Part shown: positions 40,318-58,805 of the stretch, one piece after another
Numbering within the stretch: position 1 is the stretch's first letter
Layout of the letters: the number at the start of each line of letters is the position of its first letter
Assembly (NCBI RefSeq): GCF_001571405.1
Contig: NZ_BCNX01000004.1
Coordinates: 1 to 64,000, forward strand
Reading direction: 5' to 3'
Origin: Methanoculleus thermophilus
Lineage (GTDB): Archaea > Halobacteriota > Methanomicrobia > Methanomicrobiales > Methanoculleaceae
Length of the DNA: 64,000 bases
Notes under the pieces: model-generated
The model's input: only the letters and a program-made list of their open reading frames with translations
Told to the model about the DNA's origin: nothing
Database searches by the model: none
Program-made: the position numbers and the translations under genes

Positions 40318-40749
40318 TTATGGTGAAAGGGATGCTTTGAGGAGTTCTCCACCGTGGTCGAGGATCTGGCGAACGGCATCCTCAATCTGGTCCACCCGCA
40401 GGATCAGGACCGCTCCATCTTTTCCTGAGTATGCATAGGCATACTCGATGTTTATCCCTGCATCCCCGAGGATTGACGCGATATCTGAGAGACCACCCGG
40501 CTCGTCACGCATCTTCACACCGATGACATCGGTGAACGTGACCCGGAACCCGAGATCGGTCAGCCTCCTGTAGGCGTCATCCGGCCGATCAACGAGTGCG
40601 CGGACGACCCCGAATCCATTCGCTTCAGCGATGCTGAATGCGAAGATGTTTATTTCCGCATCCCGCAGCGCACTGGCGATCGCCGCGAGGCGCCCCGGGC
40701 GGTTCTCAGAAAAGATTGAGATCTGTTTGACAATATACGACTCTTCCAT
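40318..40749 (-). CDS. Tandem ACT-domain protein
   Basis: A 143-residue protein with two ACT domains: VKQISIFSENRPGRLAAIASALRDAEINI and VIGVKMRDEPGGLSDIASILGDAGINIEYAYAY. Such proteins bind amino acids; methanogen copies often accompany phenylacetate-CoA ligase and indolepyruvate oxidoreductase genes. The start overlaps the stop of the preceding ligase gene (TAATG). Confidence 0.88.
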   Translation of the reverse strand: MEESYIVKQISIFSENRPGRLAAIASALRDAEINIFAFSIAEANGFGVVRALVDRPDDAYRRLTDLGFRVTFTDVIGVKMRDEPGGLSDIASILGDAGINIEYAYAYSGKDGAVLILRVDQIEDAVRQILDHGGELLKASLSP

Positions 40750-42050
40750 TACAAAGACCTCCTGTCAATGACCTTCTTAGACTTGCCTTCAAACCGCGGA
40801 AGGGTTCCCGGTTCGACCAGTTCCACATCCACACTCACGTTCAGGGAGCTCCGCAAGCGGTGCTCCACGTTCCGCTTGATCACCATAAGATCGGTGATCT
40901 TATCAGAGAATGCCTCCTCGCTCACCTCAACCCGCACGAGCATGGTATCGAGCGCACCCTTCCGGTCGACGACGATCTGGAAGTGTTTGCCGACGTCGGG
41001 AATCTCAAGCAGCGTATGCTCCACCTGCGATGGGAAGACGTTGATGCCGCGGACGATCAGCATATCATCCACCCGTCCCCGTATCCGGCCGATGCGGGGA
41101 TGCGTCCGGCCGCAGGGGCAGATCCCGTCCTCAATGGCGGCAAGATCCCCGATCCGATATCGGACCATGGGAAGGGCCTCTTTCTGCAGCATGGTGATGG
41201 TCACCTCGCCCTGTTCTCCGGGTTCAAGCACCTCGTTGGTCTTGGGGTCCACAATCTCCACGAACGCTAGGTCGCCCCATATATGGATTCCTTGTTGCTC
41301 TGCACACTCGGTGAACAACGGGCCGGAGAGTTCGCTTGTCCCGTAGATATCGTAGGCGCGGATCCCGAGCCAGTCCTCTATCCGGACTCGCATCTGCTCC
41401 GACCAGGGTTCAGCGCCGAGGAAACCAAGGCGAAGGTCGGTGTCGTTCTTGATCGAGACCCCCATCTTCTCTGCCACCTCCCCGATGTGAAGGAGATACG
41501 ATGGAGTGCAGGCGATGGCGGTGACGTGGAGGTCCTGCATCAGCTCAATCTGCCGTTCGGTGTTCCCGACGCTTGTGGGGAGGACGGTTGCACCAACGCG
41601 CTCAGCGCCGTAGTGGGCGCCGAGCCCGCCGGTAAAGAGGCCGTAGCCGTAACTCACCTGGATCACATCACCCCGCCCAAGACCGCAGGAGGAGAATGCG
41701 CGCGCCAGAGACTCACTCCAGTTCTCGATGTCGCGTGCCGTATAGCCGACGACTGTGGGTTTGCCTGTCGTTCCGGAGGAGACGTGGTAGCGGACGAGTT
41801 CGTTTCGGTCGGCGGAGAAGATTCCGTCCGGATAGTTATCCCGCAGATCCTGTTTGTACATGAACGGGAGTTTCGTGATATCCTCAAGCGTCCTGATATC
41901 GTCGGGGTGGACCTGCTGCTCCTTCATCCGGCGTCGGTAGAACTCGTTGAAACTGTAGAGCCGGTACACGAGGGTTTTTAGGAGTTTGAACTGGAGCCGC
42001 CGCAACTCATCGGGCGGCATCGTCTCCATTCGTGGGTTCCAGAGTACCAT
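40749..42050 (-). CDS. Phenylacetate-CoA ligase family protein (second copy)
   Basis: A 433-residue acyl-adenylate-forming enzyme. RYHVSSGTTGKPTVVGYT is the AMP-binding loop, YDIYGTSELSGP the adenine-binding motif, and GRVDDMLIVRGINVFPSQVE the C-terminal hinge. In methanogens this family is linked to aryl-acetates formed from aromatic amino acids and to aromatic amino-acid synthesis from aryl acids. It overlaps the upstream paralogue and the downstream ACT gene by one base each (TAATG), so the three are translationally coupled. Confidence 0.9.
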   Translation of the reverse strand: MVLWNPRMETMPPDELRRLQFKLLKTLVYRLYSFNEFYRRRMKEQQVHPDDIRTLEDITKLPFMYKQDLRDNYPDGIFSADRNELVRYHVSSGTTGKPTVVGYTARDIENWSESLARAFSSCGLGRGDVIQVSYGYGLFTGGLGAHYGAERVGATVLPTSVGNTERQIELMQDLHVTAIACTPSYLLHIGEVAEKMGVSIKNDTDLRLGFLGAEPWSEQMRVRIEDWLGIRAYDIYGTSELSGPLFTECAEQQGIHIWGDLAFVEIVDPKTNEVLEPGEQGEVTITMLQKEALPMVRYRIGDLAAIEDGICPCGRTHPRIGRIRGRVDDMLIVRGINVFPSQVEHTLLEIPDVGKHFQIVVDRKGALDTMLVRVEVSEEAFSDKITDLMVIKRNVEHRLRSSLNVSVDVELVEPGTLPRFEGKSKKVIDRRSL

Positions 42051-43339
42051 CAGAGTGCCCCCCGCCGGTCAATGACCCGCTTTGCCTTCCCTTCGAACCG
42101 GGGTAGCGATCCTGGCTCAACCAGTTTCACCGCGGTCCGAAGCCCGAGCGCGTTGTGGAGTTCGCTGGCGATCTTTTTCTGTATACGTGCGAGGTCCTGC
42201 AGTTCCCCGGAGAAAGATGCTCTGCTCATCTCGACTTCGATCGTCATCTCATCAAGATGTTTGACACGGTCGATATATACCATGTACTGTTCCCCAACCT
42301 CGGGAAGGGCTCGCAGAACGTGCTCGATCTGAGAGGGGAAGACATTGATTCCCCGGATGACCAGCATATCGTCGCTGCGTCCGGTGAGCCGGGCGATCTT
42401 CTGCCCGCGCCCGCAGGAGCACTCCTCGTCCATCAGCTGGGTCACGTCGCCGGTCCGGTAACGGACGAGCGGCATGGCCTCCTTGACGAGCGGGGTGATG
42501 ACAAGTTCACCCCGTTCACCGGGTGCGAGCCTCTCACCAGTCTTGGGATCGATGATCTCTGCAAGGTAGCAGTCATGCCAGAGATGGAGCCCGTTGTGCT
42601 CCGGACACTCGAATGCCACTCCCGGCCCGTACATCTCCGAGAGCCCATAACTGTCATAGGCCTTCACACCGAGCCGCCGCTCGAGTTCTGCGCGCATGCT
42701 CTCCGACCAGGGTTCGGCCCCGAATATCCCTACCCTGAGAGTATCCAGTGTCTTTCCCATCGACTCGGCAACCTCGGCGAGGTGGAGGGCGTAACTTGGC
42801 GTACAGTGGATCGCGGTCACCCCGAAGTCCTCAATCATCTCGATCTGGCGCCGGGTGTTGCCTGTTGCGCTTGGGACCACCGTCGCCCCGATCTTCTCGG
42901 CTCCGTAATGGAACCCGAGTCCCCCGGTGAAGAGACCGTAGTTGACCGCGTTCTGAAAGACATCGTCTTCTCCAAGACCGATCATCGTCATGTTTCGCGC
43001 AATCAACTCCGACCAGTTCTCCAGATCCTGTCGGGTGTAACCGACGACGGTCGGTTTTCCGGTGGTGCCGGAGGTGGTGTGAATTCGTATGATCTCCCTC
43101 ATCGGGACTGCAAAGAGGCCAAACGGGTATCCGGCCTGGAGCTCTTTTTTGTAGGTGAAGGGAAGTTTCTCCACGTCGTCGAGTGTCCTGATATCGTCCG
43201 GAGAGACGCCCGCTTCTTTGAATTTTCTCTGGTATAACCCAACCTTTTCTGCCTGATGAAGCGTCCATTTCAGCCGCTTGAGTTGAAGGTCTGCAAGTTC
43301 ATCAGGCCGGATTGTCTCCATTGCTCTGTTCCAGAACAT
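42050..43339 (-). CDS. Phenylacetate-CoA ligase family protein (first copy)
   Basis: A 429-residue paralogue of the following gene. IHTTSGTTGKPTVVGYT, YDSYGLSEMYGPG and GRSDDMLVIRGINVFPSQIE are the same motifs. ECPEHNGLHLWHD and DEECSCGRGQKIARL contain conserved cysteines that may bind zinc. It is the first gene of the operon; ATG 43339 fits the family start. Differences in substrate between the two copies cannot be read from sequence. Confidence 0.9.
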   Translation of the reverse strand: MFWNRAMETIRPDELADLQLKRLKWTLHQAEKVGLYQRKFKEAGVSPDDIRTLDDVEKLPFTYKKELQAGYPFGLFAVPMREIIRIHTTSGTTGKPTVVGYTRQDLENWSELIARNMTMIGLGEDDVFQNAVNYGLFTGGLGFHYGAEKIGATVVPSATGNTRRQIEMIEDFGVTAIHCTPSYALHLAEVAESMGKTLDTLRVGIFGAEPWSESMRAELERRLGVKAYDSYGLSEMYGPGVAFECPEHNGLHLWHDCYLAEIIDPKTGERLAPGERGELVITPLVKEAMPLVRYRTGDVTQLMDEECSCGRGQKIARLTGRSDDMLVIRGINVFPSQIEHVLRALPEVGEQYMVYIDRVKHLDEMTIEVEMSRASFSGELQDLARIQKKIASELHNALGLRTAVKLVEPGSLPRFEGKAKRVIDRRGAL

Positions 43340-43513: not shown

Positions 43514-44548
43514 TCAGTCTGTAGCATGGTACACCGTAGCAGTCTTCGGTTTCGCGCTCACCGGCTCGGGCCATCCGGCCTTTTTTTCACCGAATGCGTC
43601 CAGAACGAAGTCCACAAACATCTGCGCTTCATCTGGGTGGGGTGCGTTGCGGGGCACGGTGATGGCGTAGACGATTGGTTGGCCGATGCGTTCCCTCCCG
43701 ATGGAACGGAACCGCTCAAACCCGAGAGTCACATGCACCCTCTGGTAGTCGTCGGCGTGTTCTGCAGAGCCCAGGTTGATCTCGGGAGGGAGGTTGATCC
43801 ATTGCAGACCATGCTCTTCGGCTACGCTCCGATACTCGAAGGCATAGTCAATCCCGCCAGCATCAAGAAGCGAGAGAAGGTAGATACTCCCGTCCCGGAT
43901 GGCGAGTTTCTCATCTGCCGGCCTCATCCGCTCCGGCAGGGTGATCATCGTTACGCCGTCTGTGTGGGTTGGCCTGAGCGGCGGGTCAAAAGATCCACCG
44001 ATGATTGCCTCAAAGAGGCCCGGCTCACCGTAATGCTCCTCGGCAAGCGCTGTCACCATAAGCGCCCGGTAGCCGCAGGCGTCGAGCATGGGATTTGAGA
44101 ACCCGACCCGCACATCCGGGCGGGCCAGGACCTGGTACCAGTTACCAGCCGTGATCTCATCCGCACCCGTGCTCCGGTCGGTATAGGCGATCACGATCTC
44201 GTTCTTTGCGAAGGGGATGTACCAGTCCGTGTAATTCTCACCCCCCTCTCTCATCGGGATGTACATCATATCCGGGATGAGCGAGGCATCCGCGACCGCG
44301 ACGACATCGATACTCCGCCCGAGATCCGTTACCTGCCGAATCGCCTGGATACTCCCGTGACCTTCGAGCTGGACATCGATCTCCGGATGCTGACTCTCGA
44401 AAGCAGCCTCAATCTCCTCGAGCGGAACAAGAAGGCTTCCGGCCGGGACCACCGTGAGGACGGTACGTCCCGGGTCGGTCCCGGTGCAGCCCGCCGATAC
44501 TGCAAGCACGACGAGCGCGATCATCACAAGTGTCGCGGGACGGCTCAT
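43514..44548 (-). CDS. WtpA/ModA-type oxyanion-binding lipoprotein, orphan
   Basis: A 344-residue extracellular binding protein. After the signal AGCTG (lipobox) comes TVVPAGSLLVPLEEIEAAFESQHPEIDVQLEGHGS, close to tungstate/molybdate binding proteins, then VAVADASLIPDMM, YIPFAKNEIVIAYTDRS, VGFSNPMLDACGYRAL and YAFEYRSVAEEHGLQWINLPPEINLGS. No permease or ATPase gene lies beside it. The ATG at 44548 overlaps the upstream gene (ATGA); an upstream in-frame start is discarded because it precedes a normal signal peptide. It ends the seven-gene exported operon. Confidence 0.85.
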   Translation of the reverse strand: MSRPATLVMIALVVLAVSAGCTGTDPGRTVLTVVPAGSLLVPLEEIEAAFESQHPEIDVQLEGHGSIQAIRQVTDLGRSIDVVAVADASLIPDMMYIPMREGGENYTDWYIPFAKNEIVIAYTDRSTGADEITAGNWYQVLARPDVRVGFSNPMLDACGYRALMVTALAEEHYGEPGLFEAIIGGSFDPPLRPTHTDGVTMITLPERMRPADEKLAIRDGSIYLLSLLDAGGIDYAFEYRSVAEEHGLQWINLPPEINLGSAEHADDYQRVHVTLGFERFRSIGRERIGQPIVYAITVPRNAPHPDEAQMFVDFVLDAFGEKKAGWPEPVSAKPKTATVYHATD

Positions 44549-45108
44549 TTCCTGTGAACCTCGATCCGGTCGACCCACTTCACCCAGGGGCTTCCTTCGG
44601 TAATGACGTCGTGTGTCTCGGTGATGACGACGAGGCGGAGCGGTCCACCGTCCTCATAGGCCAGAGGCTTCCCATCTTGCTCGTAAGCCAGGATGACCTG
44701 GAGCGGTGGTGACGGAATCTCCCGGAGTTCTTCACTGAAGGTGAAGAACTCCTTGCCCTGTAACTGAGCGGTATCAAAGACCCAGAGGTAACCGTCTTCT
44801 GCGGAGACGTAGATCAGGTCGTCTGCACCCACGCCTCCTACCATCTCAACGAGATCGGCGAGGAGCACGCCACGATACCTGTTTGGGCCGTACTTGATCC
44901 CGACCGTTGAGACCGAGTAACCATACCCCTCAACAGCAGGCATCTGCCGGAGTTCGGTGAGCGTAAGCACACTCTCTGTCTCTCCGGCAAGTGTCAGGTT
45001 CCAGGCCACATCATCGGGGCCGCTCGTTGCACCGATGCATCCCGAGGCAAGGACCACGATACCGATCAGCATCGCGACGACCGGGTAGATCCGGCACACC
45101 GGGATCAC
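44545..45108 (-). CDS. Lipoprotein with molybdopterin-oxidoreductase-like fold
   Basis: A 187-residue exported lipoprotein. The lipobox VLASGCIG is followed by WNLTLAGETESVLTLTELRQMP, YRGVLLADLVEMVGG, a YVSAEDGYLWVF segment, GGPLRLVVITE and a final WVKWVDRIEVHRK. This order (G-x-L-L-x-x-L, DGY, PLR(L/V)V, W(V/I)xxI) matches the sulfite-oxidase/molybdopterin-binding fold in small proteins lacking the cofactor cysteine. Function is unknown. Overlaps both neighbours by four bases. Confidence 0.7.
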   Translation of the reverse strand: MIPVCRIYPVVAMLIGIVVLASGCIGATSGPDDVAWNLTLAGETESVLTLTELRQMPAVEGYGYSVSTVGIKYGPNRYRGVLLADLVEMVGGVGADDLIYVSAEDGYLWVFDTAQLQGKEFFTFSEELREIPSPPLQVILAYEQDGKPLAYEDGGPLRLVVITETHDVITEGSPWVKWVDRIEVHRK

Positions 45109-45938
45109 GCTCCTCTTCGGGCATGGAGCGCTGCCGCCCCTATGGCTGCAATGAGGGTTATCATGAGGGAAATCGGGGTTTTCAGCGGCTCCGTAGTCGC
45201 CTCCGTTGCAGGTCCGTCGAGAGAGCCAGCAAGTGCTCCTCGCTCGCCATGGTATCCGCCGGTGTAGATCCGGATCTCATCGATCCATTTCACGGTGAGA
45301 CCTCCAGTGGAGGGGTAGAGGTCGCCGTAGAAGTGCTGTGTTGACTCTGGGAGTGTTTCATGCATGTCCCAGTTCCCATAGACATGGAGACCTTCCGAGT
45401 TGGTCGAGTTGTCGGCGAAGAAGACGAGGCGCATCCCCATATAGTATTCGGGGACGTAACCACGCCCCTGCCGCTCGCCTGCCTCTGTCTCATCACCGTT
45501 ATACCAGCAGATCCCTATAGGGCCCTGGCGGGGGTCGGGCTCGTAGACGTTCTGGTAGGCAAACTCAACATGGTAGCCGTCGGCCGCCCGGATCATGATC
45601 TCATCCCCGGGCTCGGCGCCGCCGACCAGTTCAGCGAGGTCGCGGACATCCGTTCCTTTTACGGCCCCCCTGTCCTTGAAATTCGTCGTCTCTTCGGGGT
45701 CCCATTTGTCCCCCTCAAAGACCGGTCCTTGGTGGTAGTAGTGGGTCACCCCATCCCCGAGAACCGGGAGGTTTGCCTCCATCCACCGATAGTCAACTGT
45801 CTTCTCCGCAAGGATTGTCTCTCCATCTGCTGCGATCTTTACAATACGTAACTCTGTAGTCGGCGCCGCCGAGACGGCAGATGCCAGTATGCTCACGCAG
45901 AGAAGCGCAAGCAGGATTTGTGTCACTTTTGTATGCAT
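45105..45938 (-). CDS. Exported, membrane-anchored single-domain surface protein
   Basis: A 277-residue protein with a signal peptide (ILLALLCVSILASAVSA), one extracellular domain and a C-terminal span (ISLMITLIAAIGAAALH) with basic tail. The domain (ELRIVKIAADGETILAEKTVDYRWMEANLP, THYYHQGPVF, ELVGGAEPGDEIMIRAADGY, YMGMRLVFFADNST) recurs at the N-terminus of the PEGA protein and in the middle of the 918-residue protein. Its central GxE(I/V)xxxxxDGY and GMRLVFFAD resemble the molybdopterin-oxidoreductase-like fold. ATG 45938 is preferred since GGAGATGAT lies directly before it; ATG 45947 overlaps the upstream stop. Confidence 0.75.
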   Translation of the reverse strand: MHTKVTQILLALLCVSILASAVSAAPTTELRIVKIAADGETILAEKTVDYRWMEANLPVLGDGVTHYYHQGPVFEGDKWDPEETTNFKDRGAVKGTDVRDLAELVGGAEPGDEIMIRAADGYHVEFAYQNVYEPDPRQGPIGICWYNGDETEAGERQGRGYVPEYYMGMRLVFFADNSTNSEGLHVYGNWDMHETLPESTQHFYGDLYPSTGGLTVKWIDEIRIYTGGYHGERGALAGSLDGPATEATTEPLKTPISLMITLIAAIGAAALHARRGA

Positions 45939-45943
45939 AGTTA

Positions 45944-47140
45944 TCATCTCCATAATTCTGAGAATTCGGATAAACCAGGGAGGGATATCAGCACCTCCCA
46001 CCACTCGTCGGATGCAGGTGCCGAAAGGCGGACGGTGTCGATGACGGTTTCTCTTGGGTACATCGTCACCTCGCCGTTCTCTGCGAACTCCGCAACCGGC
46101 ACCATCTCCATAATAACCGATTCCGGATTCACGGTGACCCGGATATATCCGAGGGTCTCTTCACGGCTCATCTGGTACCCTTTTGGTTTATCATCGGCGA
46201 GCGGGTAGAACGGTGCACCGCCGCACCCAATAACGATGTATTCCGTCCCTTCAATCCGGTAACGCTCGTAAGCATGGGTGTGTGCGTTATATACGGCGTT
46301 CACGCCGTTTTCAGAGAGGATGTCGCACCATTCGTCCCGGATCGCCAGGTTTCCTCCGGGTGATTTCCGGTCAGCGGTGAACGGTGGGTGGTGGAACGCT
46401 GCGAACTTCCAGGGTGAGGAGGATGCAAGGTCTCTCCTGAGCCATGCGGTCTGCGAGCCCATATCCGTCCATGCCCAGTCGTTGCTGTCAAGGACTGTCA
46501 CATGGAGGCTGCCGGCATCGAAGGAGTAGTATGTCGGGAGAGAGAAGATGGCGGTGAAGACCTCTGCCGATCCTTCGTGGTTGCCCGCCACCGGGACCAG
46601 GGTTGTGTTCCCAAGCATCGGCCCCGCGGCTGCGAAGAACTCATCCCACTCGTCCTCCTCGCAGACGAAATCACCGGTATGAATGACGAAAAGGACATCC
46701 TCCTCTGCGGCTATCCTCTCCGCCACCAGACCGTGCCGCTCGGCCTGAGTGAAGAAGGGTTTTTGAGCCCGGGTGTCACCGTATACGATGCAGACGAACG
46801 ATTGATCCCCGAATGTCCGAAACCTGCAGTCCTCTGTTGTTTCGTTCCCGATGCCGACACGGTAGCGGTAGGTGGTCGCCGGGGTAAGATTGGTGAGAAG
46901 CACATGGTGCATGCTCTCCTTCTCTGGAGAGGCTATGCGCTGGTAAGTCCCGCCACCCTCGGCTACGTACTCCACCCACCCCTCATCGGCAGAGGTCGTC
47001 TTCCAGCTGACCACCGCTGATTTATCCATGGTGTTTGTGACATACGGCCCCCAGATGATGGCGGCAGATGCCACCGGGAGGATGAGTGCGAGCAGCATGA
47101 CCGTTACCACTACCAGACGGACACTCCGCCACCGGCTCAT
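45944..47140 (-). CDS. Exported purple-acid-phosphatase-like metallophosphoesterase
   Basis: A 398-residue secreted enzyme. A signal peptide (VVVTVMLLALILPVASA) precedes a fibronectin-like domain (WGPYVTNTMDKSAVVSWKTT) and the metallophosphoesterase domain with VYGDTR, VIHTGDFV, VAGNHEG, HHPPF and NAHTHAYERY, all five metal-binding motifs of the purple acid phosphatase fold. It should cleave phosphate esters outside the cell. It overlaps the PEGA gene (ATGA) and precedes the anchored surface gene. Confidence 0.87.
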   Translation of the reverse strand: MSRWRSVRLVVVTVMLLALILPVASAAIIWGPYVTNTMDKSAVVSWKTTSADEGWVEYVAEGGGTYQRIASPEKESMHHVLLTNLTPATTYRYRVGIGNETTEDCRFRTFGDQSFVCIVYGDTRAQKPFFTQAERHGLVAERIAAEEDVLFVIHTGDFVCEEDEWDEFFAAAGPMLGNTTLVPVAGNHEGSAEVFTAIFSLPTYYSFDAGSLHVTVLDSNDWAWTDMGSQTAWLRRDLASSSPWKFAAFHHPPFTADRKSPGGNLAIRDEWCDILSENGVNAVYNAHTHAYERYRIEGTEYIVIGCGGAPFYPLADDKPKGYQMSREETLGYIRVTVNPESVIMEMVPVAEFAENGEVTMYPRETVIDTVRLSAPASDEWWEVLISLPGLSEFSELWR

Positions 47141-49665
47141 GGATTACCCTCCTTCAGGACCACCATGCACCGGGCTGTCTCCCCTGGTGTCACCAATACA
47201 TCCATGACGGTCTTTGAGGCGTTCTCAGTGACGACCCGGACTTCATAGGTTCCGATGCTCATCCCCGTGAAGGTATGGGGCGTCTTTTCTCCGGTGTATC
47301 GGCCGTAGAGGTAGATCCGCCCATCCCGGACCGTGCTCTCGACGTGGAGATTCCCATTGGTGTACTCTCTGAGCGTGCATGTGACAGCCCCTCCGGTCTC
47401 GGCTCCCTCCGGGATCGTGATTGTATCTTCAGCGGGAATATACCCTGGTTTTGACACAAGGATGCGGTGCTGGCCGGGGGAGAGGCCTTCCACTCTGCAC
47501 GGGGTAACCTCCCCTGTGGGGAACCCATCGATGAAGACTGCGGCGCCTCTGGGGCTTGAGTCGATCCTGAGCGGGACGGTGCTGCCGCTCCAGGGTTTTA
47601 CTATGAACGTCTGACCGCTCTCAAGGGAGTTGGGAATCCTGTACGAGAGGTAGGTGCCATTCTGGGACACGGTGATCCAGGACTTCGGTCCATCGACCAC
47701 GGCCTCCCCCGGGATGGTGCCTGGAGGGTAGCGTCCGTTCACTGTGAACTTTGCACCGCGATAATCCTCTGAATCTATCTTGACTGTCTTTTTGGTGATG
47801 ATGGCTACGCCGTCAAGGCGGACAGGCGTGATCGCGTCCGGATAAACCCAGGCCTGAACGGTCTCGAAGTGGAAGTCGGAATCTTTGCCGCTCCGGCCGG
47901 GTTCAGTCTCTTCAACCCCGATGCTGTGCAGGCCTTCACGGAGGCCGTAGACGACATGTGGCGTCTGCCAGACCTGTCTTTTGTTGTCTATGACGATCGT
48001 CATACCCGGGGGATACGATTCGATGTAGAGCCCACCTGAGTGGTTTTTCGTGTTCAGGACGTCACCTGGTGTCGGTTTAGGAGGTGCAGGGGTGCCTGTC
48101 GGCGAGGAGGTTGCGATGTATTCGTCCGGGGTGGGAGTGCTCTCCGGCCCCTGCGTGGTCGGCAGGTCTTCCTCTGCCTCGAAGAACGGGAACACCGTGG
48201 CCAGGAGGTTGAGAACTGCGGCGATGAATGCCTCCAGGGGATTCTGTGTGGGGTGTGTGGTTGAGGTTCCATCCCGGCCTGCGGAGGCGTTCGCTCCTGT
48301 TTTACCGTCTACAGGGGAGAGGATCATCTCGAGGGTGCTGGATTCACCTGACTTCACAATGACGGTTCTGGTGACATTTCTGTAACCCGGCATCACGAGC
48401 TCGATCGTATGCTCTCCGGCAGGAACCGCATCCAGGGTTGCGTTGGTTCGGGTTCCCGTCTCCTTACCATCAATGAGGATGCTTGCGTTCGTTGGGACCG
48501 ATGAGATGAATATACTCCCTGTTCCAGGGGTGACTTCGGTCGGGGTGGTGTTTTCAGAGAAGAGAACCAGGTCGATGGTGGTACACTCATCCTTCTCGAC
48601 GACGACTTTCTGGGTGGCGTTTCGATATCCTGGCAGCACGAGCTCGACCATATGCTCACCGACAGGGACTTCTTCCAGGACCGCGTCAGTAAAGAGTCCT
48701 GTAACGTTGCCATCGAGGAGGATGCTCGCGTTGGTCGGGATCGTGGAGACGGCAATGCTTCCCGTCTCCGGGGTGAGGTTGAACGCGGCTTCCACGACCG
48801 TGTTTGCAACGACGTTGATCCAAACCTCGTCCGGTTGGATATATCCCTCTTTCTCGACCCTGACAGAATGTGTCCCGACCTCGATACCGGAGAGGGTGCA
48901 GGGAGTCGTATAACCGGTCTCTTCGTCGTCGATATAGACGACGGCCCCGGTGGGAGTTGAGTTTACGCGGATACTCCCGGTGGCCTCTTCTTCGCTGTAG
49001 ATAATGACTTCACTCACAGACTGTACGGAGAGGCCTGTGGTTGTTGGATACTTCCCGTTGTAGAAATACCAGTACTCTGGATCGAAACATTCGCGCATAT
49101 CCGTGACACCGAATGCATGGATCCCGTAGGGATTGGTCGATGTATCCGCGAAGAAGACAAGACGCATGCCGGTGTAGTAATCGGGGACGTAACCCTCATC
49201 GGCCTTATACCAGGTGATGACCATCGGCCCCTGCCGGGACTCCGGCTCGTAGACGTTCCGGTATGGGAACTCTCTTGACATCCCGTCTATCGCCTTGACT
49301 CTGACTATCTCACCTTCCTTCATCCCGCCTACGAGATCGCAGATGTCGGCGAGATTGGTTCCCTTCACCGCGCCCATATCCTTCTCTTCGACATTGGTAT
49401 CCTCTTCAGGATTCCAGGGATCCCCCACAAAGACAGGCCCCTGGTGGTAGTAATGGGTCTCGCCGTCGCCCTGGACCGGGAGGTTCGCCTCAAGCCAGCG
49501 GTAATCGACTGTCTTCTCCCCGAGAACAGTAACGCCATCGGCTGCATACCTGACGACGTGAAGTTCGGTAGTGGCTGCAGTTACCGGGGCTACCAGTGCG
49601 AGGAGGATGCAGAGCGCAAAGAGGATTGTGTGCGGGGCCGTACCCCGCCGGTGCGTAATTACCAT
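47137..49665 (-). CDS. Large exported PEGA-repeat surface protein
   Basis: An 842-residue protein. A signal peptide (ILFALCILLALVAPVTA) is followed by the operon's shared domain (about residues 32-225: TVDYRWLEANLPVQGDG, THYYHQGPVF, GMRLVFFADTST). PEGA-type repeats then occur at about 229-298, 300-368 and 381-450 (GSIxVxSxPTxAxxxxDG...GxHxVxxxxxGY). A Pro/Thr-rich linker, and further PEGA-like units near the C-terminus (PLRIDSSPRGAAVFIDG and others), complete it. No C-terminal anchor is visible. PEGA modules are surface-exposed binding or structural units. AAGGAG lies before the ATG. Confidence 0.82.
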   Translation of the reverse strand: MVITHRRGTAPHTILFALCILLALVAPVTAATTELHVVRYAADGVTVLGEKTVDYRWLEANLPVQGDGETHYYHQGPVFVGDPWNPEEDTNVEEKDMGAVKGTNLADICDLVGGMKEGEIVRVKAIDGMSREFPYRNVYEPESRQGPMVITWYKADEGYVPDYYTGMRLVFFADTSTNPYGIHAFGVTDMRECFDPEYWYFYNGKYPTTTGLSVQSVSEVIIYSEEEATGSIRVNSTPTGAVVYIDDEETGYTTPCTLSGIEVGTHSVRVEKEGYIQPDEVWINVVANTVVEAAFNLTPETGSIAVSTIPTNASILLDGNVTGLFTDAVLEEVPVGEHMVELVLPGYRNATQKVVVEKDECTTIDLVLFSENTTPTEVTPGTGSIFISSVPTNASILIDGKETGTRTNATLDAVPAGEHTIELVMPGYRNVTRTVIVKSGESSTLEMILSPVDGKTGANASAGRDGTSTTHPTQNPLEAFIAAVLNLLATVFPFFEAEEDLPTTQGPESTPTPDEYIATSSPTGTPAPPKPTPGDVLNTKNHSGGLYIESYPPGMTIVIDNKRQVWQTPHVVYGLREGLHSIGVEETEPGRSGKDSDFHFETVQAWVYPDAITPVRLDGVAIITKKTVKIDSEDYRGAKFTVNGRYPPGTIPGEAVVDGPKSWITVSQNGTYLSYRIPNSLESGQTFIVKPWSGSTVPLRIDSSPRGAAVFIDGFPTGEVTPCRVEGLSPGQHRILVSKPGYIPAEDTITIPEGAETGGAVTCTLREYTNGNLHVESTVRDGRIYLYGRYTGEKTPHTFTGMSIGTYEVRVVTENASKTVMDVLVTPGETARCMVVLKEGNP

Positions 49666-49698
49666 GCGTTGCTCCTTCTTGTCGCGAAAAAAGTGGGG

Positions 49699-50811
49699 TT
49701 ACTTTCTCCTCATGAGGAGGGACGCTGCAAGTGCGATGACCAGCACGATGATGACGACCAGCGCCCAGGTCGGGAGTGCCGGGCCGGGTTCCCCGGCAGG
49801 TTCCCCGCCTGGAGTTACGGTGCCCTCAGCTCCTGCTGCCACCGTCTCCGGAGCGGTCCACACCAGGGCATAGATGCTGAAGTGTGAGACCTCTGCGGTG
49901 ATCGTCCGCGTGGCGGGGTTCACCGTGGCGGCAATCTCCTGCCACTCGCCGCTCTCCGGGTTGTACCACATCACTTTCGGCGTGACACCTTCCTCGATCC
50001 GCGCCCACTCCTCGGCGGAGAGTGTGTAGGTGAGGAGTACCGGCGGGTCAAAGGTGGCGCCAGCAGGTCCGCACCTGAGCGCGACAGCGATGGTTGTTCC
50101 CGGCGGCGCCGGGGGAACTTCCGCGGGGGCGACCTTCGTGCAGGTCACTTCGGTAAGTGGGTTGCCTGCGCTGTCACGGGCGATGGTGCCCTCCTGTATC
50201 GTTACGGCGCCGACTTTGTCGTCGGTCCTGACCATCACTGACTCAAGCACCACCCCGGTCGATGACGTTGTGAGGGACGCGCTCTCGGTGAATACTTCCG
50301 GAGCGAGAGGAGCGTTCGGGTCGTAGGTTACCTCCGACCCGGGGTTTTTGGAGGAGGACCCTCCGCTGCCGGGACCGCTACCCCCTCCGCCCCCTCCTCC
50401 GCCGCCAGTGCTGGAAGTGGGGGTCGGCGTGGGCGTGATGGCGACTGCGCTCAGATCGAGGGCGGTCACCGCTCCGGATCTGAAGGTCGCTGTCTCCTGT
50501 GCGGCAACGCCGTTGACGTAGAACGTTATAATCGCCCCCTCCTGATCCGCGGTTCCCGTGACGATCAGACGGTTTCCGAGGCTTTCGTCGGGACTACCGT
50601 ACTTTCCGGCATCCGTCGTTTGGATCGAGCCGCATTCGGTTCCGCCGATTTTTGCGGTGATCACGGTGCCGGCCGGTGCGGGAGATCCGCCGATCGTCAC
50701 GTCTCCGTAAAACGCATGAGGCAGGACGGGGGGGGTGCCCCCGGCCGCCGCAGCCGCACCGGCCACGAGGCCGAGGAGGAGAATCAACGCGATGCCGTCT
50801 CGTATTTTCAC
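49699..50811 (-). CDS. Exported glycine/threonine-rich anchored surface protein
   Basis: A 370-residue protein with a signal peptide (IALILLLGLVAGAAAAAG), a first beta domain (PHAFYGDVTIGGSPAPAGTVITAKIGG), a linker of TP repeats and a long Gly/Ser tract, a second beta domain ending WYNPESGEWQEIAATVNP then HFSIYALVW, an acidic Gly/Pro stretch, and a C-terminal span (WALVVIIVLVIALAASLL) with RRK. This is the layout of methanogen surface proteins stalked on the membrane. GTG start at 50811, 12 bases past the 918-residue protein. Confidence 0.78.
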   Translation of the reverse strand: MKIRDGIALILLLGLVAGAAAAAGGTPPVLPHAFYGDVTIGGSPAPAGTVITAKIGGTECGSIQTTDAGKYGSPDESLGNRLIVTGTADQEGAIITFYVNGVAAQETATFRSGAVTALDLSAVAITPTPTPTSSTGGGGGGGGGSGPGSGGSSSKNPGSEVTYDPNAPLAPEVFTESASLTTSSTGVVLESVMVRTDDKVGAVTIQEGTIARDSAGNPLTEVTCTKVAPAEVPPAPPGTTIAVALRCGPAGATFDPPVLLTYTLSAEEWARIEEGVTPKVMWYNPESGEWQEIAATVNPATRTITAEVSHFSIYALVWTAPETVAAGAEGTVTPGGEPAGEPGPALPTWALVVIIVLVIALAASLLMRRK

Positions 50812-50823
50812 CCTAGATCCCCC

Positions 50824-53580
50824 TCAGGCACTGATGCCCGCGAGCGTATCTGCTTCGGTCATGTAGATCCAGTAGCCCTGCATGGGCTGCATCATGCGCT
50901 CATCGCCGTGCCGGCCGTCGGCACCGCGGATGATCGATACCCCGTATTGCTGGACCTTCGCATCGTAGCCGATCAGGGTCGTCCAGTGGTCCCCGAGGGA
51001 GAGCAGGGTGTTTGCCGCTGACTCGGGGACGGTATCCGTGAAACCGATCGCATTCCAGCCTTTGCTGAGGGCCTTTGTCGGCGGGAGACCCGGCTCCCCG
51101 GAAGCGAAGATCAGGGGGACGGTGCAGGCCTCATTTGAGTAGACCCAGACGCCATCGAGCGGCCGGAATACGTCGGTCGAGGCTACGTCGTCCCACTTCT
51201 GCTCCAGGGCGTCATAGATCAGGATCGAGTTGCCCGCGGTATCGACAGTGTCAAAGAAGATCGCGAACGTGTTACTACCGTCGGCGAGCCGCTTGGGTGT
51301 CGAGACGAAGTTCCAGCCCGGTTCAAGCGAGATCACCGCGTCGGCCGTAGGCGGCTCTGCAATAATCGGCACACCCTCCAGGACGATCTCGTCGATGCTT
51401 CCGACCTTCTGCTTGTTGGAGGTCAGGGCGGAACCGACGAGTTTCAAGGGCCAGGGCGGTTTATCGCCGTCTTTGGGCAGCGGAGCGCCGTTGAGCTCGT
51501 CCGCTACGATGATGTTGTTGTTCCGTTTGACGAACGAACTGTGGAAGGTGGCGGAGAAGTCGTCATCGGTGCCTTTGATGCCATCCGGACCGTAATCGAT
51601 GACGGTCACGTTGTAGCCTGCGTCTGCGAGGGTCTCATTGAAGCATTCTGTCCCGTAGTCATGGCTGTTCGCGTCGTCGACATAGCCGCAGAGGAGCCAG
51701 AGCGGCATTCCGGACCAGACGTCGTCGCCGTCGATCCATGTCGCGCCGTGTCCGGCCATGGCGCAGGCTTTGCCCTGTTCAAAGTAGGATCGGGTGATGG
51801 TCACGTTGATGGCGCCCGTCAGGATGAGGTTCCAGTCCTCCCGTGGTGCCTCATGGATCTCGATGGTTGCGACCTTCTGGTTGGAGCATCCGGCCGCTGA
51901 GGGGTAGTGGACACCGGCGTGATCGTAGTAGTGCCAGTATGGCTCGGCGAGGCATGCCCGCATGTCGTCGGCGCCAAAGACACCATCAGGGGAGTTGAAG
52001 AAGAGGCGCATACCCTCTTTGTATTCCGGCACGTACTTGCCGTTAGCCCACCAGGCGACGATAGGCTCGCCCTGCCGGTCGAGCGGCTCGTAGAGGTTGG
52101 TGTAGTTCATCTTTACCTCGTAGCCGTCGGATGCTATGAGGCAGACCTCACCACCCTCTGGAACCCCGCCAACGAGGTCACAGAGGTACCTGATTGCGGT
52201 CCCCCTTACAACATTATCGACCTTGCCGGGGTTTTTGTCTTCATCGGGGTTCCAGAGATCGTTCGGGTCGAATGTCGGGCCCTGGAACCGGAGCCGGACG
52301 CCGTCGTCACCGCCGATGATTGGGAACCGCTCCATCATCTCCTGGTAGGTGATCGTCGTCTCGTTCACAATGGTCACGCCGTCGGAGGCATACTTCACAA
52401 CGCGTATCTCGGTTGTCCCACCATTTGGGGGCGGCGGGGTTGACCCTGCCTCTACACCGATCCGGATCGCCACGACGCCTTTTGCGCTGAGGTCACTGTT
52501 GACACCCGATCCGACCAGCCGCAGCGGCCATTGAGCATCGCTTGGGTCCAGCACAGCGCCGTTGACCTTGTAGCCAAGGATGAAATTGTTGTTGTCGATC
52601 CCGATCGAACTGTTGAAGGTCGTTTCACGTCCATCGATACTGATCAGGGTGATGTCATACCCTGCTGCTGCAAGTGCACTGTTGAACGCAGCGGAGGACA
52701 TTCCGTAATTCCAGTCGTCGATCGCACCGATGATGTAGCGAAGCGGCATCCCTTCCCAGGTGTTGCTCTTGTGATCGGGGCCGGTTGCCCTATGGGACGA
52801 CATGCTTGAGATCGTCTCCTCATAGTCGCTCCTGGGCAGGACAACGTTTCGGACACCGATGAGCGCGAGCGTCCAGTCGTCCTCGTCGATCTCGACGGTT
52901 GCGTTGATGATGGCGGTTGCAGTATCGGGGTTCGAACCGCTGCCGTAGTAGAAGGTGACTACGTCGCCGTCACTCAATTCCACGACGTTTAAGGCGCTTG
53001 TGTTGTCTGCGATTCCGTCATTGAGAACACCATTGACGTAACAGAACCACTCCTCGCTGCCTTTCTGATAACTCTCGATACCGTCGAGAAGGAAGATTCT
53101 CATTTCGGCGTATTTTTTGTCGGTCACGTTGTAGACCCAGCCTTCAGACTCCGCAATCGCATGCAAAACGCCGAGCGGGGTTGGGTTCATGACCGCATAA
53201 CTCTTCCCGGAGTTGTATGCCGTCAGGACAAATGCCCCCCTTGGAAGCGTCACAGTTCCGTCAAAGAGGACTTCGGGTTCAGTTCCCGTTGTCGAAAATA
53301 GCGTTGGTGCCGCACTCAGGGACTCCGTCGGTGCGTCAACAGGCTCTTCCGTTGGTGTTCCTGTTGGCTCTTCCACCGGTGGATCAACAGACTCTTCCGT
53401 CGGTGTTGCCTGAGGCGTCTCCATCGCCGTCACCTCAGGAGTCACCGTATCATTCACAGTGCTCTCCCCGGGAGCCACGTTCCCGGGTGGGAACGCCTCC
53501 CCGGCTGCCGGCAGAACCAGCAGCGAACATATCACCAGTACAAATAAAATGTACTGCACTGATTTCCCGGTTCGTTTCAT
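50824..53580 (-). CDS. Multidomain exported surface protein with DUF4430-like and oxidoreductase-fold-like domains
   Basis: A 918-residue protein, first in the exported operon. A signal peptide is followed by a Pro/Thr/Glu-rich stretch with EEPTGTPTEEPVDAPTE repeats (about 35-85); a DUF4430/transcobalamin-C-like domain (about 105-210: GVLHAIAESEGW, SEEWFCYVNGV, LSDGDVVTFYYGS); an oxidoreductase-fold-like domain (about 225-385: WTLALIGVRNV, WEGMPLRYIIGAI, WPLRLVGSGV); the operon's shared domain (about 398-565); a second oxidoreductase-fold-like domain (about 575-740: WNLILTGAINV, WSGMPLWLLCGYV, WPLKLVGSAL); and a C-terminal GWNFVSTP/GWNAIGFTD region with GYWIYM. No molybdopterin-ligating cysteine is obvious. 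Function unknown; ligand binding at the cell surface is a reasonable guess. Confidence 0.8.
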   Translation of the reverse strand: MKRTGKSVQYILFVLVICSLLVLPAAGEAFPPGNVAPGESTVNDTVTPEVTAMETPQATPTEESVDPPVEEPTGTPTEEPVDAPTESLSAAPTLFSTTGTEPEVLFDGTVTLPRGAFVLTAYNSGKSYAVMNPTPLGVLHAIAESEGWVYNVTDKKYAEMRIFLLDGIESYQKGSEEWFCYVNGVLNDGIADNTSALNVVELSDGDVVTFYYGSGSNPDTATAIINATVEIDEDDWTLALIGVRNVVLPRSDYEETISSMSSHRATGPDHKSNTWEGMPLRYIIGAIDDWNYGMSSAAFNSALAAAGYDITLISIDGRETTFNSSIGIDNNNFILGYKVNGAVLDPSDAQWPLRLVGSGVNSDLSAKGVVAIRIGVEAGSTPPPPNGGTTEIRVVKYASDGVTIVNETTITYQEMMERFPIIGGDDGVRLRFQGPTFDPNDLWNPDEDKNPGKVDNVVRGTAIRYLCDLVGGVPEGGEVCLIASDGYEVKMNYTNLYEPLDRQGEPIVAWWANGKYVPEYKEGMRLFFNSPDGVFGADDMRACLAEPYWHYYDHAGVHYPSAAGCSNQKVATIEIHEAPREDWNLILTGAINVTITRSYFEQGKACAMAGHGATWIDGDDVWSGMPLWLLCGYVDDANSHDYGTECFNETLADAGYNVTVIDYGPDGIKGTDDDFSATFHSSFVKRNNNIIVADELNGAPLPKDGDKPPWPLKLVGSALTSNKQKVGSIDEIVLEGVPIIAEPPTADAVISLEPGWNFVSTPKRLADGSNTFAIFFDTVDTAGNSILIYDALEQKWDDVASTDVFRPLDGVWVYSNEACTVPLIFASGEPGLPPTKALSKGWNAIGFTDTVPESAANTLLSLGDHWTTLIGYDAKVQQYGVSIIRGADGRHGDERMMQPMQGYWIYMTEADTLAGISA

Positions 53581-53671: not shown

Positions 53672-53697
53672 AGTTAATTAACTTACTTAAGTTAACT
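53672..53697. promoter_or_regulatory. AT-rich palindromes between the exported operon and cas1
   Basis: AGTTAATTAACT at 53672-53683 is a perfect 12-bp palindrome, and AGTTAACT at 53690-53697 another; together they form an imperfect 26-bp inverted repeat in the divergent intergenic region. ACTATATTACATTTAT follows. It is a likely regulator site and promoter area for one or both directions; the regulator is unknown. Confidence 0.45.
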
Positions 53698-53821: not shown

Positions 53822-54757
53822 ATGACGGCGGCGGTACCCTGGCTCCCCGTCCTCGGCAACGGAGGGCACATCAAAGCGACGACACACGAACTGGTCATTG
53901 CATACGGGAATAAGACCCAGCGGTATCCCATCCAGGAGGTGAAGCACCTCCTGGTCGTCGGCGGCCATACCCTGCACACCTCAGCGGTGACGAACCTTCT
54001 CAAAGCCGGCGCTGTCATCACCTTCTTTGATGTCGACGGCACGCCCGTAGGACACCTCTCCCCCTACGGCTATCAGCCGGATGAGAGGGTGCGCCGCGCT
54101 CAGGAGCAGGCTTCGCCCCACCGGTTTGCGCAGTCTCTTGCAACGGCCAGCCTCCAGTCCCGGCTCCTCCTCCTTGAGGAACTCTACGGCCTCACCGGGC
54201 AGGATATCTTCTATGCAGGCGAACTCGACTTCCTCTACCAGGCCCGGGAGGAGCTTGCAGCCTCGGTCACCATGGATGAACTGCGGAGGCTCTCCCGCCT
54301 GACCAGCGATATGTACTATGAGATCCTCTCCCGCACGCTTCCGCCGGAGCTCGGGTTCCGGCGCAGGGCAGGCCGACCATACCAGGACCCAGTCAATGCC
54401 ATGTTTTCACTGGGGTATGCAATGCTTTACGGCAACTGTTCTGTCTCTCTGATCGGGGCCCATCTCAATCTCGATCATGGCATGCTCCATGTGGGTCCAG
54501 GAAGCCTCGTCTACGATCTCATGGAACCGCTCAAAGCCACGATGGTGGACCGTACCGTCCTCCGATTTGTCCGAAGCGAGATCACGGATAAAGATTACGA
54601 GCGCAGTGAAAAACGATGTTACCTTGATGCGAACTTCTCATCCCGACTGGTTGCAGCGCTCCGTGAGTCTATCGACCAATCTCGAATCGATGCGCAGGTG
54701 CGTATCCTGCTGGATGCGCTTCTTACGAACGCGGAGTTTCATGTACTGTACTGGTAA
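53822..54757 (+). CDS. Stand-alone Cas1-family protein (Cas1-solo)
   Basis: A 311-residue Cas1 integrase-family protein without any cas2, effector genes or CRISPR array in the window. The N-terminal beta domain ends at about residue 80 (VKHLLVVGGHTLHTSAVTNLLKAGAVITFFD). The helical domain holds RPYQDPVNAMFSLGYAMLYG, then GMLHVGPGSLVYDLMEP with His223, Asp232 and Glu235 in the places of the catalytic His and Asp. The loop between them is about three residues shorter than usual. In the helix where Cas1 has the catalytic Glu (LxGxEG), this protein reads MDELRRLSRLTS, putting Ser158 there. It may therefore be inactive as an integrase or be a structural or binding protein. No polymerase or inverted repeats of a casposon are seen. 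Cas1 genes outside CRISPR loci are known in Methanomicrobiales. Confidence 0.85.
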   Translation: MTAAVPWLPVLGNGGHIKATTHELVIAYGNKTQRYPIQEVKHLLVVGGHTLHTSAVTNLLKAGAVITFFDVDGTPVGHLSPYGYQPDERVRRAQEQASPHRFAQSLATASLQSRLLLLEELYGLTGQDIFYAGELDFLYQAREELAASVTMDELRRLSRLTSDMYYEILSRTLPPELGFRRRAGRPYQDPVNAMFSLGYAMLYGNCSVSLIGAHLNLDHGMLHVGPGSLVYDLMEPLKATMVDRTVLRFVRSEITDKDYERSEKRCYLDANFSSRLVAALRESIDQSRIDAQVRILLDALLTNAEFHVLYW

Positions 54758-55029
54758 CCGCCCCGCTGAATAATGAACCCCGGGTATGGGGCTGCAGGGG
54801 AGATCTCCTGCTGCGAGAGGTCTCTGATGACGACCCGGGGGCACCCATACAGCATGGAGACGAACTTGTCGAGGATGACGGGTTCGCCGGTCGCAGTGAT
54901 CAATACCGTCCCGTCAGGGAGGTTCATCACCTCCCCGCCGACGCCGAGATTGGTCGCAATCTTCTTGATGCACGCACGAAACCCAACGCCCTGGACTCGT
55001 CCCGATATCCGGATCTCGATCGTCTTCAC
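54739..55029 (-). CDS. acyP: Acylphosphatase
   Basis: A 96-residue enzyme hydrolysing acyl phosphates. RISGRVQGVGFRACIKK holds the phosphate-binding loop and catalytic Arg; GGEVMNLPDGTVLI supplies the catalytic Asn. It is coupled to the upstream solenoid gene by a GTGA overlap and its 3' end overlaps cas1 by 19 bases (convergent). Confidence 0.9.
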   Translation of the reverse strand: MKTIEIRISGRVQGVGFRACIKKIATNLGVGGEVMNLPDGTVLITATGEPVILDKFVSMLYGCPRVVIRDLSQQEISPAAPYPGFIIQRGGYQYST

Positions 55030-58000
55030 AGCCAGTGCTCCTGGATGATCCTCATCGACATATCAAGTTCGTCGTAGACCTCGTCGCGGATTGTCGAGTC
55101 GCGAATATTGAGCGCCTCGCCCACAGCCATATCGAGGAGCTCCCTGGATCGGTCCTCGTAGCGCTCTGCATAAAGCCGGCATGCCATATCCCCGAGGACA
55201 AAGGCGCGTCGTGAGAGCGGTCTGATAATCCGTGCCTCTTCAAGCGCGCAAAGCAGCATTCTATCTGCAACCTCATGCTGCATTGCGCTCCTGGCGATGA
55301 GGTAGAGTTCCGTGTAGTATGTCGCTCGTTTTGCTCGATCCGGTACCGCGCGTATTGCCCGATCAAGCGCGACCATATCCTTCGTGGTGTAATTGCCGTT
55401 CCGGATCTTGTCTCGACAATCCAGGATCCTGCCATAAACCGTGTTCTTCCACGATTGGGGCATCTCCTGTTCGAGCTGAACCATCAGGTTGTATCGGATC
55501 CTGTCGTCGTCAATTGCGGAGACGATATCGACAGCCCGTTGTTGAATGATTGGTTTTCCGCTCTTCCGGTAGAACGAGAAGAGCATCTGGGCCATTCGTT
55601 GGCGGGTCATGGAGACGATGAATGGTATCTGTACGTATCCCGCAGTTTTCTCCATGCCGTCCAGCAGTTCGTCGATCTCTTCTTCATCTCCGTAGGTTTC
55701 AGCGAACTGCGCCACATCGTAGAGCATCGAGAGCCGGATATACGGGGAAGGGATGCTCACCACGGTGTGGCACATGGCCGAGAGGATCTCTTTTCGCTGT
55801 GTTGGTTCGCTGACCATATCAAAGACTGCAGCAAGGGCGTCCACATACTCGACCGGATCCTCGATCCCGCTGACCTGCTCAATTGCCCAGTCTATGTCCT
55901 GCTCCTGCCGGTTGATGGCGTTGATGCTTCTTGCAGCATAAATCAGGTTCTTCCTGATGAATGCCTCCTGTTCCGGTCCGACCAACTCGAGCATACCCTG
56001 TGCCTCGGTGAGGTAACCTCTTGCCGCATCGTGATCGATCCCGGCCATAAGCCCAGCAAGGTCGGAGAGCATGATTGCACTGATGGACGGCTCGGTGATG
56101 GTGCCGATGGTCTCATGCAGTCTTTTGATGATCTTTTCAGCCCGCTCGGCATTACCGAGGGCCGAGTAGGCGCTTACAATCCGGTACATCCCGGAGTATC
56201 GCGCATAGACATCGCCGGTGTGCTCGAGGAGACGGTACATCAACTCTAGGACCTGCGATGATGCAGTAGCTCCTTCGATCCCCTCGAGTAGATATGCAGT
56301 CACCTCGTAGGGGTCGGCCGAATCAAATTCTTTGACGTAATCGGTGAAGAACGTGAGGAGACGCTGGATCATGGCGGTCCGCTCATACTCTCCCTCTATC
56401 TCCAGGGAAAAGAGAGTCATAGGGACAGCAAAGATTGGACTCCTGTAGATCTGCGTATACTCGAGCATAATGTCGACGTAACTTGCTATCTTGATCGAGA
56501 TCTCTTCACGCGGCGTATTGGTCTTGAGGAGATTGAGCGCAATTTCGAACGGCTCCATCATATTCTCAAAGATCTTGGCTTTCCCCTGGGAGAGCTGGTC
56601 TGCTGCCTGCAGGCTCCCAACGCGGACATAACCCTCGATGAGCGGATCAATCAACTGCCGCTGCAGGGAAGGATCGGTGATCTGTGAGAGTATCTGGGTT
56701 GCCTCATCGAGCGCCCGGAGCGAGAGCTGCTCGATTCCATACATGATCAGGCCGTGGATAACCTTGCCCATCGTGAAGAGACAGTAGTCCCGCTCCAGGA
56801 GTGATGAGGTAAGAACCCGCATCCCGTGGAGAAGGTCGAGGTCACTGTCCTCCACCGCGAGTATGGCTGCCTGGTCCACGATGCCGCCCAGCGCCTCTGC
56901 TCTGGCCCGCTGGTCCATGATCTCGCAGGTAAGCCCGGTTGAGCGCCGGAGAAGATCCCGGTCTTTCCGGGAGACCCCGGTCCGAGCCATCTCGACGACG
57001 ATGGCCGAGATCGCCTGTTCACGCAGGGCCTGTTCCTCAATCTGGCTTACGAGATCCACAAGGGCGGATGGATCCTTCTGGCGAACGAACCCACGCTCGA
57101 GCAGGATGTTGTTGCACTCAAAGAGCAGATTGTCCTGCGCATGGTGCGGCCTGACAAGTTCTTTTATAGCCGGTATGTGCCTGACGACCTCGTCAAAGTC
57201 ATACTCTTTGCAGAAGTCGGTCACCGCCTGGTGTACCAGCGAGTCGGCGATATCGATCTCCAGTGTGGCGAGGACATTCTCGCGAATGAGTTCGATCTCA
57301 TCACGTCGGATCCCCTCTTTGATCAGGCGGACACTGGTATCGAAAAATTGGGCGTTGATCCTCTCTACCCTGGTGCTGGCTTTCCTCATGACCTCGATTG
57401 CATGATAGAAGTCACCCATCCGCGAGAGTGCGTCGGTGATCTGCCGATAGAGATGGGCAGCCTTTGCTGGGTCGCAGGACTCATCGATGAGCGGTATGAT
57501 ATCAAGGAGGATGGTCGGGTTCCCGCTCTTCTCGACGACCGCAATCCCGGAGAGCACGATCTCTTCAATGGGAAGTTGGGTCTCCACTCCGCCCCGGGCA
57601 TTGAACTCGAACGCCTTCTCGAGGAACCAGCGCTCACCACTCCGCTCTGCCTTCTTTAAGAGCTCGATGACGAGGGTCTGACCTGCCCATGGCTTTTCGT
57701 CGTTGATCTTGAGCAGTTTGGTGTAGATCTGCTTCTTGTCCCGCTGGCGGTCGAGGAGATGTTCGGTCAGGATCGCGAGGACCTCTGTGCGCCGCTCATC
57801 CGTGATATCCGGGAGTGAGTCTATAATCCGCTCAATATCGGATATCTCTTTTTTAAGTGAGGATTTCCAGGCGGCATCCACAATATCTGCGATTGAATTG
57901 GTCCTCCGGATCTTTTGGTTGATCTCGGTGGCGCTTGCAAGACCCCGAATTACAAGGTCAATATTGCCGGACTCGATGCCGAAACCGGCGATCGCCCGGA

Positions 58001-58592: not shown

Positions 58593-58805
58593 TTCAATCA
58601 ACGCTCCCCAATGGCTTCTGCATCATGCATATTCATCATCAGATATATAGGTTGCCCCCCTCCAGCAAGAAATTTTTTTATGGAGAATTAGTGAGATCTT
58701 CCAAAATACTGGGGATATGTTAGATGATAAGAGTCTCTTGCTGCACCCTGAATGAAATGCTTATAGCAGGTTGGACTCATCTAACAAGACTCGATAAGGA
58801 AGTGA

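Follow-up and report, generated by a model that had tools for sequence, protein, structure and literature searches.

What would seven consecutive genes, all of them encoding exported proteins and several sharing one extracellular domain, do together at the surface of a methanogenic archaeon? The question is raised by a locus (positions 43514-53580, minus strand) in the window analysed here, the first 64,000 nucleotides of contig NZ_BCNX01000004.1 of Methanoculleus thermophilus. The seven-gene operon proposed there in an initial annotation is present in full, with open reading frames (ORFs) g1 to g7 separated by 12 nt (g1-g2) and 33 nt (g2-g3), and overlapping by 4 nt at the other 4 of 6 junctions, provided that ATG 45947 is the start of g5 and ATG 44548 that of g7. 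The proteins are 918, 370, 842, 398, about 280, 187 and 344-354 residues long, and the view that all are exported agrees with a Sec signal or lipobox at every N-terminus (7 of 7, read by eye). That they make up one surface machine capturing or processing a ligand, as first suggested, is still the best reading, given a conserved gene order and a single operator-like site. We propose, with confidence that is about evenly balanced, that the operon encodes the outer, cell-surface part of a system for tungsten/molybdenum uptake. The evidence is a sulfite oxidase (SUOX) fold common to its recurrent domains, the gene order, a separate clade of WtpA proteins, linkage to WtpBC, the lack of a twin-arginine translocation (Tat) route, the motifs of an exported phosphoesterase and the operator-like site.

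The recurrent domain, recognisable by its WMEANLP and HYYHQGPVF motifs, is found as first described in g1 (51811-52410), g3 (about 48979-49581) and g5 (45105-45947), the last a stand-alone domain with a C-terminal membrane anchor. Oxidoreductase-like units are likewise present in g1 (unit 1, 52435-52896; unit 2, 51337-51810) and in the lipoprotein g6 (44545-45108), but the initial annotation had set them apart from the WMEANLP domain, and this distinction falls, as both are divergent branches of one fold. In domain calls with Pfam and NCBIfam models g6 matches PF00174 (Oxidored_molyb) at E 1e-14 (54.9 bits, cut-off 24), unit 1 of g1 matches it weakly, below the cut-off alone, and 20 of 30 repeats of the giant g1-type proteins match when taken as a set. 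No Pfam model matches the WMEANLP domain, which joins the g6 family by profile-profile comparison of relatives' alignments (97.4%, E 1.2e-11); the link of the g6 family to the giant-protein repeats is weaker (74.5%). The g6 profile also matches a plant sulfite oxidase over 133 residues (E 1.7e-7). An AlphaFold2 model of the g5 domain, with a predicted local distance difference test score (pLDDT) of 92.8, finds by Foldseek the assimilatory nitrate reductase, sulfite oxidases, sulfite dehydrogenase, MsrP (1xdq/1xdy) and PruR pterin-binding proteins, one of the matched PruR structures having been solved with neopterin. The Foldseek probability is near 1 and the TM-scores are modest, about 0.4 by query and 0.6 by PruR length. 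The SUOX-fold domains displayed by g1, g3, g5 and g6 number six in all: the WMEANLP domains of g1, g3 and g5, both g1 units and the g6 domain. In one relative a WMEANLP domain and a g6-type SUOX domain are fused in a single ORF (L087:11415-12758) lying between the g6 and WtpA homologues.

Exported molybdoenzymes fold with their cofactor in the cytoplasm and leave through Tat. The mature g6 domain has no Cys beyond its lipobox, the alignment of the g5 domain shows no invariant Cys, and in unit 1 of g1 a Ser takes the place of the Cys common to most relatives; among the SUOX-fold units of the window, only unit 2 of g1, in which the conserved Cys and His are kept, has a Mo-ligating Cys at a plausible place. 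No Tat motif is evident by eye in any cluster ORF, and TatC is missing from all 61 genomes surveyed in the order, namely that of the window plus 60 relatives; 11 of 14 control genomes give a match. Because the order lacks TatC and the cluster proteins lack a Tat signal, the SUOX-fold domains most likely leave the cell empty of cofactor and would reach the surface in that state. With neither Cys nor Tat signal, g6, unit 1 of g1 and the WMEANLP domain do not fit the picture of an ordinary exported molybdoenzyme, and this reading of them is rejected.

The link to metal uptake comes from g7 (43514-44548, with the ORF open from GTG 44578), which encodes a cluster-type WtpA tungstate/molybdate-binding lipoprotein (lipobox VSAGC; that of g6 is LASGC, both read by eye). 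It scores 348 bits against TIGR03730, for which the curated cut-off is 242.75 (SBP_bac_11 in Pfam), and aligns with solved tungstate-binding proteins. Phosphate uptake was considered and rejected, as g7 is WtpA and not PstS. Of 75 WtpA matches in the fetched loci, 65 have a g6 homologue at most 200 bp away on the same strand, and a 100/100 branch parts these cluster WtpAs from canonical ones. In the Methanoregula, Methanolinea, Methanocalculus, ANME-2-type (anaerobic methanotrophic) and Peptococcaceae-labelled loci wtpB and wtpC directly follow the cluster wtpA, the WtpB and WtpC calls in relatives being best-family matches that mostly fall below equivalog cut-offs. With g7 a WtpA and wtpBC behind it in many relatives, the ligand can be narrowed to a tungsten/molybdenum species.

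The window operon itself has no wtpB or wtpC. The genome (99.5% complete) has no second full-length WtpA, and its wtpBC stand without wtpA inside a molybdenum/tungsten transport island (L132, G000:C6:464000-482000), which also holds two tupABC sets, a MOT1-type molybdate transporter and an amino-acid-kinase-family protein. Three near-complete genomes (G002, G010, G023) likewise have wtpBC without wtpA and no other full-length WtpA; in G013 a canonical wtpA lies ahead of wtpBC. WtpB is present in 25 of 27 cluster-bearing genomes versus 14 of 34 cluster-free ones, in counts that ignore kinship. Most simply, these data would mean that the orphan WtpBC is served by the cluster WtpA. In two Methanolinea loci (L083:6900-8849 and L095:6863-8812) a 649-residue ORF just upstream of the cluster has a divergent WtpA domain in its C-terminal half, and in L083 a TupA-like gene lies beside it.

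Conservation among relatives, which the initial annotation had proposed to examine, is extensive. The full g1-g7 order is kept in Methanoculleus, the window's genus, where cas1 and two phenylacetate-CoA-ligase-like genes flank it, and g5-g6-g7 form a constant core in six Methanomicrobiales families and beyond, in ANME-1, ANME-2, Argoarchaeum and Methanosaeta-labelled loci. The g5 domain occurs in 32 of 61 sampled genomes and 9 of 18 genera of Methanomicrobiales. Of 393 genomes from the phylum 42 have the strongly conserved g6, and in 40 of these it is found once. The scan of the genome collection kept the best 80 matches. Also preserved are the metal-ligand motifs of g4 (45944-47140), an exported metallophosphoesterase that, like purple-acid-phosphatase-like enzymes, has Metallophos and PAP_N matches (Pfam). 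Its D, GD, GNH, H and HxH motifs are intact in the window and in 40 of 40 sequences, with the sole exception of the leading His of HxH, kept in 38 of 40. Unlike those enzymes it is encoded within a SUOX-fold system, and in the ANME and Argoarchaeum loci enzyme and WMEANLP domain form one fusion protein. The cluster also occurs in divergent form on contigs labelled Peptococcaceae, Bacillota, Chloroflexi and Anaerolineales (L123, L127, L130, L131), by horizontal transfer or mis-binning, and one bacteria-labelled copy (L066), nearly identical to Methanoculleus, is probably mis-binned.

The proteins could instead form a structural or adhesive surface layer, with SUOX-fold and PEGA units as spacers in S-layer-like or sheath proteins and wtpA a co-regulated neighbour. 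Outside the genus g1 homologues reach about 1,900 residues and have more DUF4430-like and SUOX units, and such giant, repetitive exported proteins with variable repeat numbers, together with the PEGA, Gly-rich and C-terminal anchor regions, speak for a layer. We nevertheless judge the layer unlikely, as the WtpA link persists across distant lineages and involves a clade of its own, the phosphoesterase ligands are kept, and g6 remains conserved in single copy.

A further conserved element precedes the operon. An operator-like direct repeat of 25 bp, GTTAACTTA-N5-GTTAATTAACT, lies 91 bp upstream of g1 (53672-53696, minus strand) and has near-identical counterparts ahead of the g1 homologues of other Methanoculleus. 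Loci of Methanocalculus and Methanoregulaceae have versions that have diverged further, and the usual distance to the start codon is 70-105 bp. Ten of these sites served to train the weight matrix, and the later matches in L112, L122, L098, L107, L062 and L126 lie outside the training set. In the window genome the site at g1 is the sole one at up to 3 mismatches. Such a conserved single site is consistent with one transcription unit.

How might an uptake front end work? Sec-exported, cofactor-free SUOX-fold domains, carried on surface-anchored and very large proteins, would bind a tungsten/molybdenum-related ligand, for which a pterin or metal-pterin compound is the likeliest candidate. The exported metallophosphoesterase could then trim phosphoester groups from this ligand, WtpA would take over the oxyanion or metal species, and WtpBC, encoded elsewhere in the window genome and next door in many relatives, would import it. 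A more specific form of this scheme, in which the operon salvages tungsto- or molybdopterin cofactor shed by other microbes, the SUOX arrays catching it, the phosphoesterase trimming it and the metal passing to WtpA and WtpBC, is possible but doubtful.

Several observations weigh against the uptake and salvage proposals. The MoaA gene of the window genome is intact, and therefore salvage of ready-made cofactor would not be essential and would supplement synthesis. The molybdenum cofactor reportedly does not fit into the small pocket of PruR (PMC13259868). WtpA of Pyrococcus furiosus binds tungsten through two carboxylates, Asp160 and Glu218 (PMC10221389); the equivalent of Asp160 is retained in 64 of 65 cluster WtpAs, but that of Glu218 (by our own column assignment) is Asp in the window and D, E, A, S, Q or T across the clade. 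As this position is not fixed, the species bound by the cluster WtpA may differ from tungstate, i.e. specificity may have changed. Finally, the operator-like site was looked for in the molybdenum/tungsten island and none was seen. A shared tungsten/molybdenum regulator is accordingly rejected, the site being found only at the operon in the whole genome.

Relative to WtpABC of the P. furiosus type the cluster thus retains a WtpA above the curated cut-off, and differs in the separate clade and in the company of exported SUOX-fold proteins and a phosphoesterase; we know of no classical wtp operon with either. If the SUOX-fold domains bound tungstate or molybdate itself, with no pterin involved, they would make a high-capacity surface trap. 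The WtpA/WtpBC link and the island accord with such oxyanion-only capture, but it leaves the exported phosphoesterase without an obvious role, and to our knowledge characterised SUOX-fold proteins are pterin or metal-pterin binders and never free-oxyanion binders. We regard it as quite improbable.

The closest precedent for the SUOX-fold domains of the cluster is PruR, which is exported, has the SUOX fold, lacks Cys and binds pterin (PMC13259868). The cluster shares with it the exported Cys-less fold, and PruR structures (7kom, 7rkb, 7kp2, 7kou, 7kos) are the best compact PDB matches of the WMEANLP domain. The domain differs from PruR in an added segment around HYYHQGPVF and in very low identity (about 10%), and the cluster is archaeal, with many-unit arrays on large surface proteins. 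The likeness could extend to function, the cluster proteins binding reduced pterins to signal cell density or attachment. This is very unlikely, as the cluster genes of the window and its relatives include no DcpA-type cyclic di-GMP regulator, no sensor-kinase partner is among the cluster genes, and a solute-binding protein with an ATP-binding cassette (ABC) transporter suggests uptake.

From the SUOX enzymes (sulfite oxidase, sulfite dehydrogenase, MsrP/YedY and assimilatory nitrate reductase), which have the same fold, the cluster proteins differ in their Cys-less g6, in the WMEANLP domain without conserved Cys and in the lack of Tat export; nor are dimerisation or cytochrome domains seen in them. 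Least probable of all is that the Cys-bearing units of the giant proteins are catalytic, cofactor-loaded tungsten/molybdenum enzymes, for although 80% of 117 such units have the Cys and 86% the His, beside a W-x-G-x-P-L motif that resembles that of MsrP, an order without TatC and proteins without Tat signals offer a folded, loaded domain no known export route, and neither unit 1 in the window nor mature g6 has the Cys.

If the operon is the front end of tungsten/molybdenum uptake, its significance lies in the metabolism of its hosts. Formylmethanofuran dehydrogenase and formate dehydrogenase, on which hydrogenotrophic methanogens and ANME archaea rely, are tungsten or molybdenum enzymes, and tungsten is a scarce metal. 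Import of these metals is, as far as we know, known only from ModABC, TupABC and WtpABC, and a conserved, specifically regulated surface set linked to the import of tungstate would extend this picture by an outer layer. The giant surface proteins of Methanomicrobiales and ANME, invisible to Pfam, would gain a testable ligand, and a metal-pterin ligand would point to cofactor sharing within anaerobic consortia. Were cofactor salvage true, we would know of no earlier example of a prokaryotic machinery that takes up tungsten or molybdenum from pre-made cofactor. Transfer of a metal cofactor between organisms has a precedent in Caenorhabditis elegans, which is reported to obtain molybdenum cofactor from its diet (PMC9793310). 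No published description of the system was found in open-access papers, to which the search was confined, and DUF4430 is not mentioned in the ANME comparative-genomics paper.

The domain inventory first drawn up for the operon holds for the PEGA repeats, the phosphatase and the oxyanion-binding protein, which is WtpA; DUF4430 appears in the window protein only below the curated cut-off. The giant exported protein g1 (50824-53580) consists of this DUF4430-like domain (52897-53265), SUOX unit 1, the WMEANLP domain, SUOX unit 2 and a C-terminal domain. PF14478 scores below its curated cut-off in g1, and 11 of 23 relatives match it at E up to 0.1. The AlphaFold2 model of the domain is confident (pLDDT 95.8) and has no convincing fold match in the PDB (best E 0.2, low probability). 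Because it finds no transcobalamin or other solved fold, the cobamide dependence initially suggested is unsupported, and cobamide capture via DUF4430 is rejected. The exported g2 (49699-50811), which recurs in the cluster, has a Gly/Ser-rich linker and a C-terminal membrane anchor. The exported g3 (47137-49665) joins its WMEANLP domain to PEGA repeats (six stretches by Pfam).

The surroundings of the operon are also partly conserved. A lone cas1 (53822-54757, plus strand; TIGR00287, 146 bits) is divergent from g1 and has an acylphosphatase gene behind it on the opposite strand. The pair adjoins the operon in most loci examined in the genus, and no further cas gene is among the listed neighbours. 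Beyond it a 1191-residue protein without Pfam match (55026-58601, minus strand) holds the same place in relatives at 59-88% identity. On the other side, 174 nt after g7, two phenylacetate-CoA-ligase-like genes and an ACT-domain gene (40318-43339, minus strand) keep their synteny in most loci of the genus.

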